A stretch of 40,021 nucleotides of DNA, taken from a virus. Below are positions 3,372-17,433 of the stretch, one piece after another. The stretch covers positions 1 to 40,021 of IMG/VR virus record IMGVR_UViG_3300046517_000719, one strand, 5' to 3'. The notes under the pieces were generated by a model. It worked only from the letters and a program-made list of their open reading frames with translations. It had not been told where the DNA came from and ran no database searches. Positions within the stretch are counted from its first letter, which is position 1. The number at the start of each line of letters is the position of its first letter. A program made the position numbers and the translations under genes.

Positions 3372-4355
3372 TCAGCCAAGCTCCCACGTGAGGGCGGTGT
3401 CCACGCAGCCCTTAATGGCGTGCGGTGCGGGCCACGCGGTGGCCAGCAGGGCGGTGGCTGTCAGCACGCGGCGCATGGCGTCTACGTCCAGGTCGCCCAC
3501 CCGTGCCAGCACGTCCTCCACGCGGCGGCCGGCGCCGGCGTCGGGCTCCAGCACCAGCTGGCTGGCCTGCAGGCCGTAGGGCACCTGCACGGCCACGGCG
3601 GCGCCGTGCATGGTGGCCAGTGCTGCGGCCACATCGCTGCTGGCCCTGGCGCCGTTGTACCCGTCGTCCTCGGTGCCGGCGCTCAGGGTGGCCAGGTCGC
3701 GGCGGCCCTCGGCGGCACGGTGCATGGCCAGCACCATGTCCTGGCTCTCGGCGTTGCACCAGGCGGTGGCCTGCTCGGGGCTGTAGCCGGCGGCGTGCAG
3801 TGCCTGCCGTACCTCCAGCACCAGGTAGCCGGCCTCGTAGGCGTCGCCCTGGGCCCAGCCCTCGGGGTCGGCGGTGCGGCCGTGCTGCGGGCATGCCTCG
3901 TCCGCGGTGCAGCTGAGCTGCGGGCCGGTCTCGCCGGTGCCGACGTCCTCGTAGCTGCAGGTGCAGGGCAGCGGCAGCTGCTGGCCGCCGGCGTTGCGGT
4001 CGCATGCGCGGGCGCTGTCCAGGTTCGGCAGCTGCGTGTCGGCGCCCACGGTGTGGGTGGCGGGCATGTCCTGGAACGCGGGGTCGGCCAGCGGCACGCG
4101 GGTGTAGGTCACGTCCGCCGCGTGCTGTGCTGCCATGGCGGCGTCGTTCTGCTCCGGGGTAACGGCCTGGGCTGCTGCCAGCGCCTCGCGGGCGGTGGCG
4201 AGCTTGGCCTCGATCCGAGCCACCTGGGCGGCGCGGTGTGCGGGGCCGTCCACGGGGCCGGCGGTCTGGCTGGGGCGGCGGCGCTTGCTGGCAGCAAGCT
4301 GTGCCTCGAGCATGTCAACGGTGGCCTGCAGGTGCTGGGTGGTGAGCGCGTTCAT
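3372..4355 (-). CDS. Hypothetical protein, Cys/His cluster in the centre (327 aa)
   Basis: Not recognised. The N-terminal third is helical and probably coiled coil (HLQATVDMLEAQLAASK, ARIEAKLATAREALAAAQ). The centre has a Cys/His cluster, CTCSYEDVG followed about 20 residues later by CTADEACPQHG, which could bind zinc. The C-terminal half is a helical alanine-rich domain. The ATG at 4355 has GGGAGG upstream and lies at the end of the leader cassette P1. It is the first gene after that promoter, so it should be well expressed early. Confidence 0.7.
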   Translation of the reverse strand: MNALTTQHLQATVDMLEAQLAASKRRRPSQTAGPVDGPAHRAAQVARIEAKLATAREALAAAQAVTPEQNDAAMAAQHAADVTYTRVPLADPAFQDMPATHTVGADTQLPNLDSARACDRNAGGQQLPLPCTCSYEDVGTGETGPQLSCTADEACPQHGRTADPEGWAQGDAYEAGYLVLEVRQALHAAGYSPEQATAWCNAESQDMVLAMHRAAEGRRDLATLSAGTEDDGYNGARASSDVAAALATMHGAAVAVQVPYGLQASQLVLEPDAGAGRRVEDVLARVGDLDVDAMRRVLTATALLATAWPAPHAIKGCVDTALTWELG

Positions 4356-4373
4356 GGTGCCTCCCTGGGTGGT

Positions 4374-4518: not shown

Positions 4519-5709
4519 CTAGAACCTGAACAGGTCGGCCAGGGCCTTGGGCCCGGGCGTGGTGGCGCCGGCCTGGCGCAGCTGGCTGTTGGCGCGGCGG
4601 CCGGCGGCGGTGGTGATGTCGCCGGTGGGGGCGCCGGCCTTGCGCAGCGCCTTCACGGTGGCCTTGGCGCTGGCCACCAGGCCGCGCATCTCGCTCGGGC
4701 TGTCCCAGTCCTGGGTGGCGTAGTGCTGGGCGTCGCTCAGCAGCTCGGCGTAGCTCTCGGCGTCCAGCTGCACCACAGCCTGGCGGCCGGCGTGCCGCAG
4801 CAGGGTGCCGGCGGGCAGGTCGCGGGCGGCGTGGTCCTCGTAGAACGCGCCGGGCACGCGGTACACGTTGCCCTGGGGCGGCAGGTCGGCGGCGTCCACG
4901 GCGGCCTGCACCTGCTCCACGGCCTTGCCCACCAGGGCGTCGCGCTCGGCGTGGGTCAGGGTGCTGGCGGGTGCCGGCGCGGCCGGTGCCGCGGGGCTAA
5001 ACACGCCGCGTGGGCCTGTGACGGTTTTGCCTGTGCGATCGTCGCGGACCACGATGGTGTGTGGTGTGGGACCGGGGCCGACCACGGTGCCTGTGTCAAT
5101 GGGGCGTTGCGCGTACGGCATCCGGTATACCTCGCGCTTCCATTTGACCTGTGTTCCGACGGGCGGCAGGTCGGCGGCGTCCGCGGCCGGCGTGCTGGGG
5201 GCGGCGGGTGCCGCCCCCTTCTTGGCTGCGGTGCGTGCCCGCTTGTAGGCGTTGTAGCCGGCCCGCCAGGTGTCCATGGCGCCCTGGTTGCCGGCCTTGC
5301 GGGCCTGGCAGTAGGCGGTGAACGCGGCCTTATTCTCGGCCATGCCCTGGGGCGCCGCGGTGGCAGCGGGCGCCTTGCCCAGCAGTGCGTCCATCACGGG
5401 CTGCACGCCGGCCTCTTCGATTGCCCGGTCCACGCTGGTGGGCTCGTCGCCCTTGCGGCCGGCCACCGGCACGATCAGCCAGCCGGCCTTGCCGGCATTG
5501 TGCTGCATGCTGAGCAGCTTGGCCTTGTACGCCTGCAGGCTGGCCAGGTTGGCGCTGCAGCTAACGATCACGTAGCCGGTGCCGTCCTTGGCCAGGGCGT
5601 CCGGGGCCACCAGCGCGGCCACGTAGGGGCGGGCGGTGCGGCGGCCGATCTCCTGGCCGGTGGGCAGGGTGAAGTAGAGGAAGTTCTTCTTGCGGGTGCT
5701 GCTAGCCAT
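4519..5709 (-). CDS. Hypothetical multi-segment protein (396 aa)
   Basis: Not recognised. It has an N-terminal alpha/beta segment (LYFTLPTGQEIGRRTARPYV, GYVIVSCSANLASLQAYKAK), then a module with AFTAYCQARKAG and GYNAYKRARTAAKKGAA that is shared in swapped order with the 15837-16799 product. Two DAADLPPxG linkers follow, on either side of a beta segment (KWKREVYRMPYAQRP, TIVVRDDRTGKTV). The C-terminus is helical. The DNA for that beta segment (about 4998-5165) is less GC-rich at third positions and is flanked by a 22-bp direct repeat (4876-4897, 5161-5182), suggesting an inserted or duplicated block. The ATG at 5709 follows AGGAGG and the P2 leader hairpin. Confidence 0.7.
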   Translation of the reverse strand: MASSTRKKNFLYFTLPTGQEIGRRTARPYVAALVAPDALAKDGTGYVIVSCSANLASLQAYKAKLLSMQHNAGKAGWLIVPVAGRKGDEPTSVDRAIEEAGVQPVMDALLGKAPAATAAPQGMAENKAAFTAYCQARKAGNQGAMDTWRAGYNAYKRARTAAKKGAAPAAPSTPAADAADLPPVGTQVKWKREVYRMPYAQRPIDTGTVVGPGPTPHTIVVRDDRTGKTVTGPRGVFSPAAPAAPAPASTLTHAERDALVGKAVEQVQAAVDAADLPPQGNVYRVPGAFYEDHAARDLPAGTLLRHAGRQAVVQLDAESYAELLSDAQHYATQDWDSPSEMRGLVASAKATVKALRKAGAPTGDITTAAGRRANSQLRQAGATTPGPKALADLFRF

Positions 5710-5727
5710 GGTGGCCTCCTGGGTGGT

Positions 5728-7853: not shown

Positions 7854-8053
7854 CTGGCGCACCCGTTGCCCGGGGCGCACTGCCAGTCGTTGGGGCCGCT
7901 GCGCATGTTGATGCGCTGGGCTGTGCGCGTGCGGCCGCGCAGCGTGAACGGCTTGCCGGCGCTGGTGAAGCCTCTGGTGCCCTTGCGCCCACACTTGATG
8001 CACGTGCGCGGATAGGCGCCGCCGCCGCCGTATTCCGCGTTTGGGGCGGTCAC
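7850..8053 (-). CDS. Small zinc-binding-like protein (67 aa)
   Basis: This small basic protein has CIKCGRKG near the middle and two more cysteines near the C-terminus (QCAPGNGCAR), a possible four-cysteine zinc knuckle. It starts at a GTG that overlaps the QueC stop (GTGA) and is preceded by a GGGGGAG stretch. It lies between the modification gene and the resolvase-like gene. Its role is unknown; nucleic-acid binding is plausible from the zinc motif and positive charge. Confidence 0.65.
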   Translation of the reverse strand: MTAPNAEYGGGGAYPRTCIKCGRKGTRGFTSAGKPFTLRGRTRTAQRINMRSGPNDWQCAPGNGCAR

Positions 8054-9573
8054 TCCCCCACCGTTGGGTCCTCGGCGCCGGCGCCGGCGAACCCTGCCGC
8101 CCGCACCACGCAGCTGGGGCACGTGCCGCACCCGGGGCGCTGGCCCCGGTAGCAGCTGATGGTCAGGTGGTACGGGGCGCCGCACGCCAGGCCACGCTCC
8201 ACCACGCCAGTCTTGGTCTCGTACTGCAGCGGGGCCAGCACCTGCACCTTGCCGCCCGTGCCCGTGATGGCGGCGGCGGCCATGGCGCCCACGAACCCGG
8301 GCGTGGTGTCAGGGTACGTCCAGGCGCCTGGCGTGAACGTCATGTGTGCGCCCAGCCACACCTGGCGGGCGCCCAGGGCGTAGGCCCAGGCCACGGCCAC
8401 GGCCACCAGCACGCCGTTGCGGAACGGCACCTCCGCGTCGGCGGCGGCGCCGGCGGCCAGCTCCCCGAGGTCGGTGCTGTCGGGCATGGGTGCGGTGCCC
8501 AGCAGTGCGCTGGTGCCGCCCAGGTGGGGCAGCTGCACCAGCCGGTGCTCCACGCCGTAGTAGCCGGCCAGCTCCTCGGCGCACGCCAGCTCCACCGCGT
8601 GCAGCTGCCCGTACTCGGCGCTGATGCACGCCACGCCGGCGGGGCCGTACACGTCCACAGCCTCAGCCAGCAGGGTGGCGCTGTCCAGGCCGCCGCTCAG
8701 CAGGATGACGACGGTGGGTGGTGCCAGGGCCGGCAGCGGCGGCTGCTCGACCGGCGGGGCTTCGTCCAGGGTGAGTGCCATGGTCTGCTCCTCCTCGGGT
8801 GGGGCGGCCACCTTACCGGCCACCAGGGTGTCGGGGTTGGGAATCTCGGCCGCGGTGCCCACAGCACCGAACAGCCGGTCTTGCACAGGGGCCGCGGCCA
8901 GCTGCAGACCGCGGGTGAGCAGCGACTGCCCGGTCTTGTCCTGCATGAGCGGGAACCGGCCGTGTGCGCTGCCGTCCACGCTGCACACCACGCCGGTGCT
9001 CAGTATCCACCGGAAGCGGTTGGCGCCGTTCACGCGGCCCACGTGAACCCACAGGCCACGCCGGCGGGCCTCGCCCATGATCTCCTCGCTGGCCTCGCCG
9101 GTCTTCCACAGGTTGCTGCCGCCCACGAACAGGGCGTCGATGTTGTCCCAGGGCACGCCGTACTGCTCCAGCCCGTCCTGCGCCACCAGGGCCACGGGCA
9201 CGCCGAACTCGCGCACCCGGGGCGCCCACGTCTCGAACAGCTCGAGGGTGCGCGGCGCATCGCGCACCACGTCAGGGGCGCTGACGAAATGGCAGTGCGG
9301 CAGCCCCTGCACCTTGTCCAGCATGCGCAGGAACTTCTGCTCGTTGAACGTGGTCCATGCGCCGTTGTCGCACCCCCAGGGCAGCCGCTGCGCCACCATG
9401 CGATCCATGCTGTCGTAGCTCTGGGGGATCAGCAGCCGCCCCAGGGTTAGGTGCTCGTCGGCCCAGCGTTCGATCCATGCCTGGCCGGTGGTGACCAGCA
9501 GCAGCACGCCACCAGGGTGGGGCTCCGCGGTACACCACCGGCACAGGCAGCCGGCCTTGGTGGGCAGGATCAC
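8050..9573 (-). CDS. dpdA-queC: Fused DpdA-like DNA transglycosylase and QueC (preQ0 synthase)
   Basis: One 507-codon frame joins two enzymes. Residues 1-230 are a TGT/DpdA-like barrel: CDNGAWTTF (D69), VSAPDVV (D101), LVAQDGLE (D133), FVGGSN (150-154), HVGRVN (177-182), SVDGS (198-202). DpdA proteins exchange guanine in DNA for a 7-deazaguanine base. Residues 285-507 are QueC, which makes preQ0 from 7-carboxy-7-deazaguanine with ATP and ammonia: PP-loop SGGLDS (293-298) and a zinc site C474, C482, C485, C488. The GTG start overlaps the stop of the 28-aa gene. An internal ATG (M265, at 8781) has a strong ribosome binding site, so free QueC may also be made. Confidence 0.88.
   Translation of the reverse strand: MILPTKAGCLCRWCTAEPHPGGVLLLVTTGQAWIERWADEHLTLGRLLIPQSYDSMDRMVAQRLPWGCDNGAWTTFNEQKFLRMLDKVQGLPHCHFVSAPDVVRDAPRTLELFETWAPRVREFGVPVALVAQDGLEQYGVPWDNIDALFVGGSNLWKTGEASEEIMGEARRRGLWVHVGRVNGANRFRWILSTGVVCSVDGSAHGRFPLMQDKTGQSLLTRGLQLAAAPVQDRLFGAVGTAAEIPNPDTLVAGKVAAPPEEEQTMALTLDEAPPVEQPPLPALAPPTVVILLSGGLDSATLLAEAVDVYGPAGVACISAEYGQLHAVELACAEELAGYYGVEHRLVQLPHLGGTSALLGTAPMPDSTDLGELAAGAAADAEVPFRNGVLVAVAVAWAYALGARQVWLGAHMTFTPGAWTYPDTTPGFVGAMAAAAITGTGGKVQVLAPLQYETKTGVVERGLACGAPYHLTISCYRGQRPGCGTCPSCVVRAAGFAGAGAEDPTVGE
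8782..8796 (-). promoter_or_regulatory. Internal ribosome binding site before QueC domain
   Basis: GAGGAGGAG (8796-8788 on the minus strand) lies 6 nt before an in-frame ATG at 8781-8779. It is stronger than the site at the annotated GTG of the same frame. This predicts a separate QueC product of about 243 aa beside the full fusion. Confidence 0.6.
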
Positions 9574-9656
9574 TCGTCAGCCCATAGCCACAGGCCCAGC
9601 CACAGGCCGGCGGTCAGGCCCACGGCCAGGCCGGCAACGAACCAGGTCCAGTCCAT
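9570..9656 (-). CDS. 28-residue single-span membrane peptide
   Basis: This tiny frame has an ATG at 9656 overlapping the TGA of the upstream gene (ATGA) and a TGA overlapping the next gene's GTG (GTGA). The product starts MDWTWF, has a hydrophobic glycine/leucine span with AGLAVGLTAGLWLGLWLW, and ends ADE. The coupled junctions on both sides argue that it is really translated. Its span resembles the hydrophobic peptide encoded at 18794-18868 near the lysis genes. Function unknown. Confidence 0.5.
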   Translation of the reverse strand: MDWTWFVAGLAVGLTAGLWLGLWLWADE

Positions 9657-10837
9657 CACCCGACCGTCACAGTGCCGGTCTTGGTGGTCAGGTCCGCGGT
9701 CACCTTGCCCTTGGTGAAGTCGCGTGCCCACACGTACGGGGCCGTCGGGTAGCGCGGCCCCAGCGCCGCCCCCAGGTCTACGTCGTACAGGCCGTCCCAG
9801 GAGCCGGGCTGCCACGCGGTGTTCTCGTAGGCGTAGTCGCGGCCGTTGCTGCACAGCAGCGCACACGCCAGGTTGAAGTGTGCGGCCTGTGTGCCGCCGG
9901 CGGACTCCGAGAGGTGGTTCACCGCGGTGCCCAGGTCGTGGCACATATCCACGAACGCGAACAGCTGCTCGATCTTGGCCGCGGTGTAATTGCCGTCGTT
10001 GAAGCCACGCTCAAGCTCGAACACATCGCACGCCTTAATGGCGGCCAGCACGTCGGGGTTCTTGGTGTCCTCCCACCACAGCGCATTGTGAACAATCTGC
10101 GCAGCGGGGTACGCGGCACGTAGCCGCTGCAGGCCCACGCTCAGGTCGTGGTCCCACTCCTGCAGCGAGTAGCTCTGCCCGGTGCGCGGGTTCACCGCCG
10201 TGGGCACCACCACGCGGTCGAGGTCGACGTCGTCGATGTGCAGGCCCTTGGCACCGCCGGCCAGGTACGCGCCGGCCGCGGCGATCATGGCGTCCTGGTA
10301 GGCGGGGTTGCCGATGTCACCCAGGAACTGCACCGACGAGTAGAACGTGAGCCTGGCGCCGGCGCTGTTCTTGAGGATCCACTCCGGGTGTGCGCTGGCC
10401 GTGGCGCTGTTCACGTAGATCGCCAGCCAGTCCAAGTACCGCCAGCAGCCTGGGTGCCACGCCTGGATGCTGGGCACGTAGGTGATCATGCGGTTCCAGT
10501 GCGCCTTCATCCAGTCCTTCTGTGGCTGTGTGGGGTACGGCGACAGGTCGTACTGGTCCGCTTGCGAGGTGGCGTACATACAGAACTGAACGCGGCCCTC
10601 GGTGTCCGCCGGCGGCGGTGGCGGCGGTGGCGGTGGCGGTGGCGGCGGCGGCGGTGCGACGGGCTGTTCGAGCTTCGCCACGCGAGACTGGAGCGCGTCG
10701 AACTCGCTTTGTGTGACGGTGAGTTTCAGGTTCGACCACAGGTTGTCGATCTGGGTCGCGGCCTCCTGCGCGAACGCCTTAATCTTGGGGCTTGCCTGCC
10801 CCGAGATCTGCGCCGCCAGGTCTGTCAGCTTGCTCAT
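9656..10837 (-). CDS. Glycoside-hydrolase-like (GHL15-type TIM barrel) protein with poly-Pro stalk
   Basis: A 393-aa protein with three parts. The N-terminal 60 residues form a helical, coiled-coil-like segment (LWSNLKLTVTQSEFDALQSR), followed by a run of about 15 prolines. The rest is a TIM-barrel domain with the look of putative glycosyl hydrolases (GHL15/GH114-like): ITYVPSIQAWH, GLHIDDVDLDR and CDVFELERGFN are likely strand ends carrying acidic residues. The layout suggests a virion-associated or surface-acting glycan enzyme, yet it sits inside the 7-deazaguanine cluster. AAAGGAG lies 4 nt before the ATG at 10837. The poly-Pro tract is encoded by a GGCGGT-type microsatellite (about 10607-10656). 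Confidence 0.75.
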   Translation of the reverse strand: MSKLTDLAAQISGQASPKIKAFAQEAATQIDNLWSNLKLTVTQSEFDALQSRVAKLEQPVAPPPPPPPPPPPPPPPADTEGRVQFCMYATSQADQYDLSPYPTQPQKDWMKAHWNRMITYVPSIQAWHPGCWRYLDWLAIYVNSATASAHPEWILKNSAGARLTFYSSVQFLGDIGNPAYQDAMIAAAGAYLAGGAKGLHIDDVDLDRVVVPTAVNPRTGQSYSLQEWDHDLSVGLQRLRAAYPAAQIVHNALWWEDTKNPDVLAAIKACDVFELERGFNDGNYTAAKIEQLFAFVDMCHDLGTAVNHLSESAGGTQAAHFNLACALLCSNGRDYAYENTAWQPGSWDGLYDVDLGAALGPRYPTAPYVWARDFTKGKVTADLTTKTGTVTVG

Positions 10838-10850
10838 GGTGCTCCTTTCG

Positions 10851-11414
10851 TTACCGCAGCAGCAGGGCCATGGTCTCGGCCCTGGCCGCGGGGTTGGCCA
10901 GCGTGCCACGCAGGCAGCTGGTGGTCATGGTGGCGCCGGCCTTGCGCACACCGCGCAGGGCCATGCACAGGTGGGTGGCCTCCACCACTACGGCCACACC
11001 CCTGGGGTTCAGGTGCCCCATGATGGCGTCGGCCACCTGCACGGTTAGCAGCTCCTGGGTCTGCAGCCGCCGGGCGTAGGCGTCCACCACCCGGGCCAGC
11101 TTGCTCAGGCCCACGATCCGGTTGTCGGGCAGGTAGGCCACGTGGGCCACGCCGGAGAACGGCAGCAGGTGGTGCTCGCACAGGCTGGCGAACTCGATGT
11201 CGCGCAGCGCCACCAGCTCATCGTAGCCGCCGTCGTCGAACGTGGTGAACAGCCCGGGCACGTCCACCTGGTAGCCGCCGGTCATCTCGGCCATGGCCTT
11301 GGCGGCACGCTCGGGTGTGCGGGCCAGCGCCTCGCTGTAGATGTCAACGGGCAGGGCTTGCAGCACGCCCAGGTAGTGGTGGCGCATGGCGGTGACGGCG
11401 GCTACCTCTGCCAC
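10851..11414 (-). CDS. folE: GTP cyclohydrolase I
   Basis: FolE converts GTP to 7,8-dihydroneopterin triphosphate, the first step of 7-deazaguanine synthesis. The 187-aa product has all the family hallmarks: [12 protein letters not shown] with zinc ligands C79 and H82, [20 protein letters not shown], and [13 protein letters not shown] with C150 and the active-site H148. The start is a GTG at 11414 overlapping the end of the upstream 57-aa gene by 13 nt; an ATG nine codons in (11387) is an alternative but lacks a close ribosome binding site. The phage copy probably boosts precursor supply. Confidence 0.95.
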
Positions 11415-11575
11415 GCCCTCACCACCTTGCCGGCGGCGCTGAACCGCACCTTAAACGCGGCCCAGGGTGTGGGCACGGGCCGGCCCGCCTGCTCGGCGTG
11501 GGCTTGCGTGCGGGCCACCCGCAGGGCGGCCTGCTGGTCGGTCTCGCGCCGGCGCGGGTACTGGCCGGTGGGCAT
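11402..11575 (-). CDS. Hypothetical small basic protein (57 aa)
   Basis: Not recognised. The ATG at 11575 overlaps the QueE stop (TGATG) and the TAG at 11402-11404 lies inside the folE start region. The product begins [10 protein letters not shown], has an alanine/glutamine-rich helix ([19 protein letters not shown]), then [15 protein letters not shown]. The coupled junctions and normal codon use support a real gene. Its place between queE and folE suggests an accessory role, not shown by sequence. Confidence 0.6.
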
Positions 11576-12309
11576 CAGCGCCCCCTCTCATGGCCCCAGG
11601 CCAGCACGTGCATCTGCGGGCTGAGGCTGACGTCGTACATGCGCGGGTCGCCGGCCATGCGCTCCGCCAGCCAGGTGTAGGCGTCCAGCACCTCCAGCTG
11701 CGGGTTGCGGGTTGCGGTGTCCGTGCCCACCGACAGGTGCAGGCTGCACGTGCCCGTGTTCCTGGCGTCGGCCAGCACTGGCACCGCCCACTCGTAGTCG
11801 GCCTCGTCGAACACCACGATCTTGACCGCGGTGGGCTGCTCGTAGGCGCTGGCCTGCTCCAGGAAGTTTGGCCAGGCCGCCTCCTGCTGCTCGTGCATGC
11901 CGCTGCTCGGCGGCTTGGGTGACACCACCAGCTGGTCGACGTCGGCCAGCCACTCGCGCCACCTGGTGCCCTGCGTCTCCACAGCCACCAGCATGTCGTG
12001 CTCGTGCAGCAGCTGCACCAGCTCGGCCAGGTCGTACAGGGCAGGGTTGCCGCCGCTGATCGTGACCCACTCGGGGCCCTCGGGCAGCCGCAGCACCTCC
12101 CGGGCGATCTCGCCGGCGGCCTTGTCGATCGCCTCGCGGCGGTGGGCGGGCAGCACCGCGTACAGGCTGTCGCACCAGCTGCACCGGAAGTCGCAGCCCC
12201 ACAGGCGTATGAAGTGTGTGGGCAGCCCCACCAGCGGCCCCTCGCCTTGGATCGTGGGCCCAAAGATCTCGGTAACGGGCAGGTGCGGTGCCCTGGGCGG
12301 CGGGCTCAT
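11575..12309 (-). CDS. queE: 7-carboxy-7-deazaguanine synthase (radical SAM)
   Basis: QueE turns 6-carboxy-tetrahydropterin into 7-carboxy-7-deazaguanine with SAM and a 4Fe-4S cluster. The 244-aa product has the N-terminal QGEG (21-24), the CxxxCxxC cluster CDFRCSWCD (C39, C43, C46), the VTISGGNP SAM-binding stretch and VETQGT, all characteristic of QueE. The start ATG overlaps the queD stop (ATGA). It belongs to the queD-queE-folE-dpdA/queC run, and its product is the substrate of the QueC domain encoded at 8050-9573. Confidence 0.95.
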   Translation of the reverse strand: MSPPPRAPHLPVTEIFGPTIQGEGPLVGLPTHFIRLWGCDFRCSWCDSLYAVLPAHRREAIDKAAGEIAREVLRLPEGPEWVTISGGNPALYDLAELVQLLHEHDMLVAVETQGTRWREWLADVDQLVVSPKPPSSGMHEQQEAAWPNFLEQASAYEQPTAVKIVVFDEADYEWAVPVLADARNTGTCSLHLSVGTDTATRNPQLEVLDAYTWLAERMAGDPRMYDVSLSPQMHVLAWGHERGR

Positions 12310-12683
12310 ACCGTCACCTCGGCGTAGGCGGTGGGCGTCTCGTACACGCGCACGGCCTCCAAGCCGGGCACGTGGCCGAGCAGGGTGCCCAGCACCCACC
12401 AGGCAATCCACTCGGCGGTGGTGCAGGGCAGGTGGGCGAGCGAGATGTTCAGGTCCTGGTGGTCTAGCAGCGGCTCGCAGTGCTCCTGCCAGGCGGCTTT
12501 GATGTCGCCGAAGTCTTGCACCATGCCGGCCTTGGGGCCGTCCTCCTGTATGGGCCCGTGGGCGTACACGCGCACCCGGTAGGTGTGGCCGTGCGGCTGC
12601 GCACACTTGCCGTCGTGGTGGGGCAGGCGGTGCGCCGCGTCGAACGTGAACTCCTTGCAGATGGTGGCCTGGGCCAGTGTCAT
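12306..12683 (-). CDS. queD: 6-carboxy-5,6,7,8-tetrahydropterin synthase
   Basis: QueD converts dihydroneopterin triphosphate to 6-carboxytetrahydropterin. The 125-aa product has the zinc histidines H18, H31 and H33 (FDAAHRL, PHGHTY), the catalytic C27, the conserved MVQDFGDIK and LDHQDLN, and a terminal VRVYETPTAYAEV with the glutamate that binds the pterin. AGGAGG with a short spacer precedes the ATG at 12683, which overlaps the stop of the RDF-like gene (ATGA). The leader motif ACCCAGGAGGCAACATG matches that of cassette P3. Confidence 0.95.
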   Translation of the reverse strand: MTLAQATICKEFTFDAAHRLPHHDGKCAQPHGHTYRVRVYAHGPIQEDGPKAGMVQDFGDIKAAWQEHCEPLLDHQDLNISLAHLPCTTAEWIAWWVLGTLLGHVPGLEAVRVYETPTAYAEVTV

Positions 12684-13921
12684 GTTGCCTCCTGGGTGGG
12701 TGCAGGTGCGCCCTGCACGGCGGTGACCACGGCGTCAAACAGCCGGGCCGGTATGTGGGCTGTGCTCTCCTGGCCGGTGACGTCCTGCAGGATGCCGCGC
12801 AGCTGCTCCTCGGTGATGCCGCGGCCGCGCACGGTGGCCCACAGCAGGCGGCGCTGGGCGTTGTTGGCCATGGCCTCGGCCAGCATCTCGCCGGCGTCGG
12901 GCGTGGCGGGCGCCGGCGGTGGCACAGGGGCGGGTGCTGGCGGCGCTGGCGGGGCCGCTGCGGGCACGACAGGCGGGGCCTCGGGTACTAGCTCGCCCTC
13001 GTCCTCGTCCACCACCAGCGGGCTGCTGCCAGGCGGCGGCACCTGTGGGCCCAGCGGTGCGGCCGCGTTGGCCTGGGGCACCGCCGCCGGCGGCGGCTCG
13101 GCCACCTGGGCCAGCCCCTCGGACACGCTTGGCGCCGCGTGCTCCACGGGCGGCGGGACGGGCACGTACCGCTCCGCGATGCCGATGGCTGTGGAACCGC
13201 TGGTGCCGGGTGGCAGCTGGGGCACGTCCAGGATCTCGCCCTCGGCGGCGCCGGCGCCCAGGGCCAGCAGCTGCCCTGCGCTCACGTCCACGTCGATCAC
13301 GGGCACCGGGTACGTGGTGGTCTTGCCGCCGGCCACCTTGCGCCGCACATCGATGCGCAGGCGGGCGGGCAGCAACGACCCGCGGCGGGTGGCCTCCTCG
13401 ATCAGGTTGGCGGCCGCGGCCAGCTCCACCGCCGCGTAGTAGCTGTGCGTCTCCAGGCGCCAGTGCCCAATGCCGGGCACGTCGGGCAGCAGCACTGCCA
13501 GGCGCGTGGTGGGCTTGCACGCCTTGCCCTTGCTGCTGGCCTCGGTGCGCTCATCGTAGGCGGCTGGGCACAGGCAGGGCCCGTCGGAGAGCATCTCGCG
13601 CTTGCCGTCACACCGGCGGGTGCAGCCGCCGCCCGACCACAGCTCCCACCACTGGCTCAGCGCCTGGCCCGGGATGATGAGCACGCGCAGGGCATCGGCC
13701 TGGGTGAACACCTCGTACTCGCCCTCGCGGCCCTCCCAGGGACGCACCTCGCCGCCGTAGATGCCGGCCACCGCGGCCAGGCGCACCTCGTCGCGGCTGG
13801 TGAGGCGCCACGCCTCCAGCTTGCTGGGCCGGCTGCGGCCGCCGGCGGTGGGCACCTGGGCGCCCATGCGAATGCGGCCCACCTCTTGCAGCCGCTGCTG
13901 CAGGTCTAGAATCGGGCTCAT
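12680..13921 (-). CDS. Gp3-like recombination-directionality-factor family protein
   Basis: The N-terminal 240 residues match the phiC31 Gp3-like family: LQQRLQEVGRIRMGAQVPT, the KLEAWRLTSRD stretch, IYGGEVRPWEG, and a cysteine cluster (C100, C104, C116, C118, C135) followed by TRLAVLLPDVPGIGHWRLE. In phiC31 the homologue switches a serine integrase to excision. The C-terminal third is a Pro/Ala linker and a helical tail, so the protein (413 aa) is longer than Gp3. No integrase is in this window, and the next gene upstream-side is a RecB-like nuclease. A role as a DNA-binding or pairing partner in recombination is therefore an alternative. GGAGGG precedes the ATG. Confidence 0.8.
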   Translation of the reverse strand: MSPILDLQQRLQEVGRIRMGAQVPTAGGRSRPSKLEAWRLTSRDEVRLAAVAGIYGGEVRPWEGREGEYEVFTQADALRVLIIPGQALSQWWELWSGGGCTRRCDGKREMLSDGPCLCPAAYDERTEASSKGKACKPTTRLAVLLPDVPGIGHWRLETHSYYAAVELAAAANLIEEATRRGSLLPARLRIDVRRKVAGGKTTTYPVPVIDVDVSAGQLLALGAGAAEGEILDVPQLPPGTSGSTAIGIAERYVPVPPPVEHAAPSVSEGLAQVAEPPPAAVPQANAAAPLGPQVPPPGSSPLVVDEDEGELVPEAPPVVPAAAPPAPPAPAPVPPPAPATPDAGEMLAEAMANNAQRRLLWATVRGRGITEEQLRGILQDVTGQESTAHIPARLFDAVVTAVQGAPAPTQEAT

Positions 13922-17002: not shown

Positions 17003-17400
17003 GACGCCACCGTGATGCTGTAGTAGCCGTTGGCCGCCGCCCACTGCACTGCCTGGCGCTTGCACGCGCTGTAGGTGCCGTGTGCGCTGAACTGGTCGAT
17101 CTGCTGGCCGGCGGTGCCGTTGTCGGCGTGCTCAAAGATCCAGCCGCCGGTGCCCCGGGGCATGCGCCCGTGCGCGAACTGGTAGCCGCTGGTGCTGACC
17201 CGCACCTGGCTGGTGCGGATGCCCCGGGCCCGCCGCACGCCGACCCGCGTGTACCGGCCCACGTGCAGGTCGGTCAGGCCGTTGGTGCGGGCCCAGCCCT
17301 GGGCCTTGGCCCGAGCCTCTTCGTAGCTGCCAGCCACGGTGCTGAACACCACGGTGGCGCCCATGAACAGGGCCGTAAAGGTGTAGGTGGTGGTGGGCAT
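16999..17400 (-). CDS. Hypothetical protein, first gene of the P3 operon (133 aa)
   Basis: Not recognised. The N-terminal half is beta-rich (TYTFTALFMGATVVFSTVAG), then a helix (SYEEARAKAQGWART), and the C-terminal half has GWIFEHADNG and ACKRQAVQWAAANGYYSI. No catalytic motif is visible. GGGAGG is a few nt before the ATG at 17400, directly after the P3 leader hairpin. Being first behind the promoter, it is probably among the earliest and most abundant non-structural products. Confidence 0.7.
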   Translation of the reverse strand: MPTTTYTFTALFMGATVVFSTVAGSYEEARAKAQGWARTNGLTDLHVGRYTRVGVRRARGIRTSQVRVSTSGYQFAHGRMPRGTGGWIFEHADNGTAGQQIDQFSAHGTYSACKRQAVQWAAANGYYSITVAS

Positions 17401-17418
17401 GTTGCCTCCCTGGGTGAG

Positions 17419-17433
17419 GCCGGCGGTGCCGGC
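17419..17433 (-). promoter_or_regulatory. Leader hairpin, cassette P3
   Basis: GCCGGC (17419-17424), GGT, GCCGGC (17428-17433), then CTCACCCAGGGAGGCAAC before the start at 17400. It has the same design as the hairpins at 4374 and 5728. Confidence 0.6.

Follow-up and report, generated by a model that had tools for sequence, protein, structure and literature searches.

A short DpdA-like barrel and QueC in one open reading frame of a viral preQ0 gene group

The window, meaning the whole 40,021-nucleotide stretch of DNA analysed here, is a 40-kb viral contig with 70% GC, whose record may be incomplete. On its minus strand, an open reading frame (ORF) of 507 codons, open throughout with a single stop at its end, carries a short DpdA-like barrel followed by a QueC domain (Table 1). 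The original prediction had given this uninterrupted frame without a strand and had proposed that a TGT/DpdA-like domain and QueC are fused in it; the frame was confirmed, and the fusion is supported by the presence of both domains in it. We named the family of the N-terminal half sDpdA, for short DpdA-like. The gene could encode one merged enzyme for the final two reactions by which preQ0 is made and placed in phage DNA, probably giving free QueC as well, a reading that we regard as evenly balanced. FolE, QueD, and QueE would convert GTP to 7-carboxy-7-deazaguanine, the QueC domain would turn this compound, with ATP and ammonia, into preQ0, and the sDpdA barrel would replace guanine in phage DNA with preQ0. 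The arrangement represents a new domain fusion on a known pathway, and its larger value lies in the insight that it gives into an uncharacterised short DpdA-like family.

Table 1. Features of the sDpdA-QueC region of the window
Feature	Coordinates	Strand	Evidence or remark
sDpdA-QueC fusion ORF, 507 aa	8050..9573	-	GTG start 9573; alternative start GTG 9507
sDpdA TIM-barrel domain, residues 23-208, phrog_15826	8950..9507	-	profile, alignment, model
QDRLF, residues 231-235, possible sliding-clamp-binding motif	8869..8883	-	natural C-terminus of sDpdA proteins
Linker, Ala/Pro/Glu-rich, residues 236-287	8713..8868	-	between sDpdA and QueC domains
Shine-Dalgarno-like site GAGGAGGAG	8788..8796	-	6 nt before M265
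ATG 8781 (M265), candidate start of free 243-aa QueC	8779..8781	-	start signal
QueC domain, residues about 287-504	8062..8712	-	PF06508 E 3.3e-44; phrog_1550; 2PG3 E 5.7e-20
SGGLDS P-loop, residues 293-298	8680..8697	-	QueC hallmark motif
Four Cys (C474, C482, C485, C488), QueC zinc site	8110..8154	-	sequence
28-aa ORF, one hydrophobic membrane-like segment MDWTWFVAGLAVGLTAGLWLGLWLWADE	9570..9656	-	sequence
GHL15-type glycoside hydrolase gene	9656-10909	-	between folE and fusion, inside preQ0 gene group
folE, GTP cyclohydrolase I	10851..11414	-	PF01227 E 4.7e-63
queE, radical SAM 7-carboxy-7-deazaguanine synthase	11575..12309	-	phrog_2076 E 3.7e-42; start overlaps queD stop
queD, 6-carboxytetrahydropterin synthase	12306..12683	-	own HMM E 1.6e-19

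Domains of the fusion ORF

The C-terminal half is a member of the QueC family, scoring 151.3 bits against PF06508 (curated cut-off 22) and matching the solved QueC of E. coli. The four cysteines of the zinc site are invariant in comparison with other phage QueC proteins, and SGGLDS is likewise conserved. The earlier claim of a complete QueC holds, with both hallmark motifs intact. The score against the NCBIfam equivalog TIGR00364 falls short of its cut-off (127 vs 150.3 bits), which places the domain in the QueC family below the isofunctional cut-off, as distant phage members may be. A known relative in build is Gat-QueC of phages and archaea, which also carries an extra N-terminal enzymatic domain on QueC within a phage 7-deazaguanine system; in Gat-QueC this domain is a glutamine amidotransferase (PMC6884629), whereas that of the window fusion is a DpdA-like barrel. 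Identity with Gat-QueC was rejected, since residues 1-264 contain no class II glutamine amidotransferase domain in Pfam or NCBIfam searches.

The N-terminal half matches phrog_15826 (E 2.3e-40, profile positions 34-186 of 212), a family of about 200 aa without assigned function that is labelled "DpdA-like" in actinophages. Relatives with 36-39% identity include the actinophage "DpdA-like tRNA-guanine transglycosylases" Sonali gp81, GreaseLightnin gp55, and Aoka gp40, as well as ReqiPine5 gp03 (phrog_15826), all of which are stand-alone proteins of about 205 aa, whereas the window sDpdA is fused to QueC. Residues D69 N70, P100 D101, Q132 D133 G134, G151 G152, K157, H177, and D200 G201 are invariant in the family. 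An AlphaFold model of residues 1-264 (mean pLDDT 81) forms a TIM barrel; its PDB matches include the TGT 3UNT (E 3.4e-4), with other TIM barrels scoring equally, and its viral structure matches include the canonical DpdA of Sonali.

A profile built from 48 sDpdA sequences was aligned with that of canonical DpdA by hhalign with 92% probability (E 6.6e-7), which indicates remote homology. The alignment matches DNGA to DSGA, PDV to LDV, and the closing DG to DS, and it also brings together the GG motifs and the His residues of the two families. The Asp positions of sDpdA that correspond to conserved ones of DpdA are invariant. Comparison with the bacterial TGT profile gave no link (hhalign probability 0.3%), and the sDpdA half has no Pfam match to PF01702 (TGT). 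The canonical DpdA profile matches phages 9g, CAjan, Dp-1, and 7-11, and no sDpdA profile match was found in these four phages or in nt-1 and HVTV-1. Searched against the window, the canonical profile gave no match anywhere while positive controls matched, so a canonical DpdA was rejected as the identity of the N-terminal half. These profile comparisons set the short sDpdA family apart from the DpdAs of 9g, CAjan, Dp-1, and 7-11, whose activity has been measured; no measured activity was found for any sDpdA member. Of the barrel originally placed at residues 1-230, the DpdA-like nature stands, with boundaries drawn in to about 23-208 and without canonical DpdA identity.

The DpdAs of 9g, CAjan, and Dp-1 (Hutinet 2019, PMC6884629) thus have a barrel homologous to sDpdA at the profile level, with corresponding conserved positions. 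These DpdAs work with folE, queD, queE, and queC, the functions that also accompany sDpdA in the window, and the canonical dpdA often lies directly upstream of queC. They differ in size (about 300 aa for phage DpdA, about 200 aa for sDpdA, which a DpdA profile misses in genome searches) and in the fusion to QueC found here. In two frames, L288:4998-6563 and L289:4941-6524, a canonical DpdA is extended at its C-terminus by an unassigned stretch of about 220 aa.

Genomic company of sDpdA

Upstream of the fusion and on the same strand lie queD, queE, and folE, which together with the QueC domain provide all four preQ0 enzymes, so that the full pathway is encoded within 5 kb. As the canonical DpdA profile has no match in the window, sDpdA is the sole candidate inserter seen.

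A wider survey yielded 121 sDpdA sequence clusters (93 viral and 28 bacterial). Within 6 kb of the viral clusters, preQ0 genes were found in 12/93 cases and a Vut_1/YhhQ-type transporter in 24/93; YhhQ, which transports preQ0, is a member of Vut_1. Although the search reached as far as 8 kb into the flanks, all 32 non-redundant Vut_1 matches were co-directional with sDpdA and at most 1.2 kb away, 30 of them at most 450 bp (examples are L091, L022, L033, L006, L004, and about 25 others); Pfam confirmed each of the seven matches tested. Phage homologues of YhhQ have been noted before, without a link to any phage group (Hutinet 2019, PMC6884629). A profile search for canonical DpdA, in which control records were positive, found it in none of 30 virus records with sDpdA, some of them 60-160 kb long. 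Given the links to preQ0 genes and Vut_1 together with this absence, the context points to a preQ0-dependent enzyme, most simply the inserter. Gene fusions point to functional partners, and the fusion and these linkages assign sDpdA a testable job, the placement of preQ0 into DNA. If this is true, phages without a recognised DpdA may have modified DNA, and a compact exchanger of about 200 aa would be of use for enzymology.

A different role for this DpdA-derived barrel in preQ0 metabolism, for example as a subunit working with a partner, as an enzyme that removes or recycles bases, or as one directed at tRNA, with the real inserter encoded by genome sequence that the record lacks, appears unlikely to us. 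The cultured phages Sonali, R29Z, and phiG7 encode a canonical DpdA plus sDpdA at a separate site, so sDpdA may do something other than insertion; the possible incompleteness of the 40-kb record and the missing profile link to TGT also fit such a role. The search of the 30 virus records speaks against it, as do the cultured phage genomes with sDpdA that were searched whole, five of six of which have no canonical DpdA, and the invariance of the DpdA-matching Asp positions.

The motif Qxx[LM][FLW] occurs in 33 of 110 sDpdA tails, compared with 5.0 in shuffled tails, and in phiG7 the sDpdA gene is flanked by genes for a clamp and for the DNA polymerase. The QDRLF sequence (Q-x-x-L-F) that closes the sDpdA part may therefore tether the enzyme to the DNA sliding clamp. 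In its broadest and rather doubtful form, this idea would make sDpdA proteins a class of clamp-tethered enzymes, separate from DpdA and DpdA2, that exchange guanine for preQ0 in DNA and receive preQ0 either through a YhhQ-type importer or from de novo synthesis; here sDpdA would be covalently joined to the preQ0 synthase in a two-product gene that would make preQ0 at the replication fork.

The sDpdA of phiG7 (L009:4866-5524) is split across two overlapping frames, the sDpdA domain of L078:3-15524 lies within an open frame of 5174 codons, probably a giant multi-domain phage protein, and in Erythrobacter phage ZS04 the sDpdA match falls under a DarB-like gene.

The junction and its start signals

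At 70% GC, a spacer of about 30 codons stays free of stops about half the time, so that the open frame alone is weak evidence for translation across the junction. Better evidence for translation through the spacer is the high GC3, which is 0.83-0.87 across the sDpdA/QueC junction, with the bias persisting in codons 236-264. At the upstream end, the 28-aa ORF overlaps the preceding gene as TGATG and the fusion ORF as GTGA; the latter overlap, in which its stop shares bases with the start codon, favours GTG 9573. GTG 9507 may nevertheless be the true start, as sDpdA relatives begin at about residue 23 of the fusion and residues 1-17 were modelled without confidence.

The internal start at M265 has a strong signal. 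Pairing of GAGGAGGAG with the anti-Shine-Dalgarno sequence was calculated at -11.8 kcal/mol, a value that four of the 150 internal in-frame ATGs, M265 itself included, equal or exceed; at least one of these four, at 13921, probably marks where an ORF called too long really begins. The CACCC-GAGGAGG leader of M265 also resembles that of other starts in the window: CACCC recurs at queD and several likely starts, and CACCCAGGAGG-like leaders precede likely starts at 4353-4372, 5707-5726, 12683-12700, and 17400-17420 (minus strand), as a sequence associated with starts. Another internal ATG, 9078, illustrates that Glu-Glu codons can imitate Shine-Dalgarno-like sites by chance. The pairing rank and the shared leader support the strong ribosome binding site that had been predicted 6 nt before M265. 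Since the QueC half has retained its own ribosome site and ATG, a free QueC of about 25 kDa is probably produced alongside the full-length protein.

How unusual the fusion is can be judged from comparable gene pairs. Among neighbours in the order inserter-queC, two of three sDpdA-queC pairs are separate and one, that of the window, is fused, while canonical DpdA-queC pairs are separate in 20 of 21 cases. The two separate sDpdA pairs, from relatives with about 40% identity, have an 8-nt gap (L045) or an ATGA overlap (L254/L259) at the same junction. The fused canonical pair is a 607-aa protein on an IMG/VR contig (L147:5278-7098), which shares with the window fusion the order of inserter, linker, and QueC. 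It contains a canonical DpdA, however, and arose independently, and its relative L174 (about 50% identical) has two genes 12 nt apart. L147 supports the occurrence of DpdA-QueC mergers. From the pair counts and the comparison of L147 with L174, fusion of an inserter with QueC is rare and has arisen at least twice, and the disappearance of a stop codon between adjacent genes accounts for it easily; for the window gene, loss of the stop codon between sDpdA and a following queC is the most likely route.

The sDpdA-QueC fusion itself is known from one contig: scans of viral contigs for close relatives of the N-terminal half or of the whole protein returned nothing, no fusion of the same build was found in plasmid and phage collections, and DNA-level resemblance within the phage collection was limited to short folE matches. 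Related phages with two separate genes at this junction, which the original prediction would have taken as a refutation if all were so built, are represented by L045 and L259; they bear it out in part but do not overturn the fusion, since no close relative is among the sequences searched. Channelling of preQ0 between the domains, also part of the original prediction, is possible but unsupported, and is only an idea because most sDpdA-queC and DpdA-queC pairs are separate.

Because the fusion rests on a single metagenomic contig, loss of a stop by assembly error has to be weighed. The locus could in practice give two proteins, either because a stop or frameshift was lost through a sequencing or assembly error or because the read-through form is minor; we consider this the less probable course, though a real one. 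The two-gene junctions of L045 and L259, the preponderance of separate canonical pairs, and the M265 start signal are in its favour, as is the observation that free sDpdA relatives terminate near the position of QDRLF in the fusion. An alternative frame at the junction also has a stop at codon 253, so that a single indel could separate sDpdA and QueC. Against two separate proteins stand the unbroken GC3 bias over codons 236-264 and the independent fusion in L147, whose long linker is additional to what the unfused L174 has. The merged enzyme with an additional free QueC is the reading that we retain.

In L313:5867-8032, L106:9009-10826, and L164:5052-6203, QueC and QueE frames are broken in frame by long intein-like inserts.
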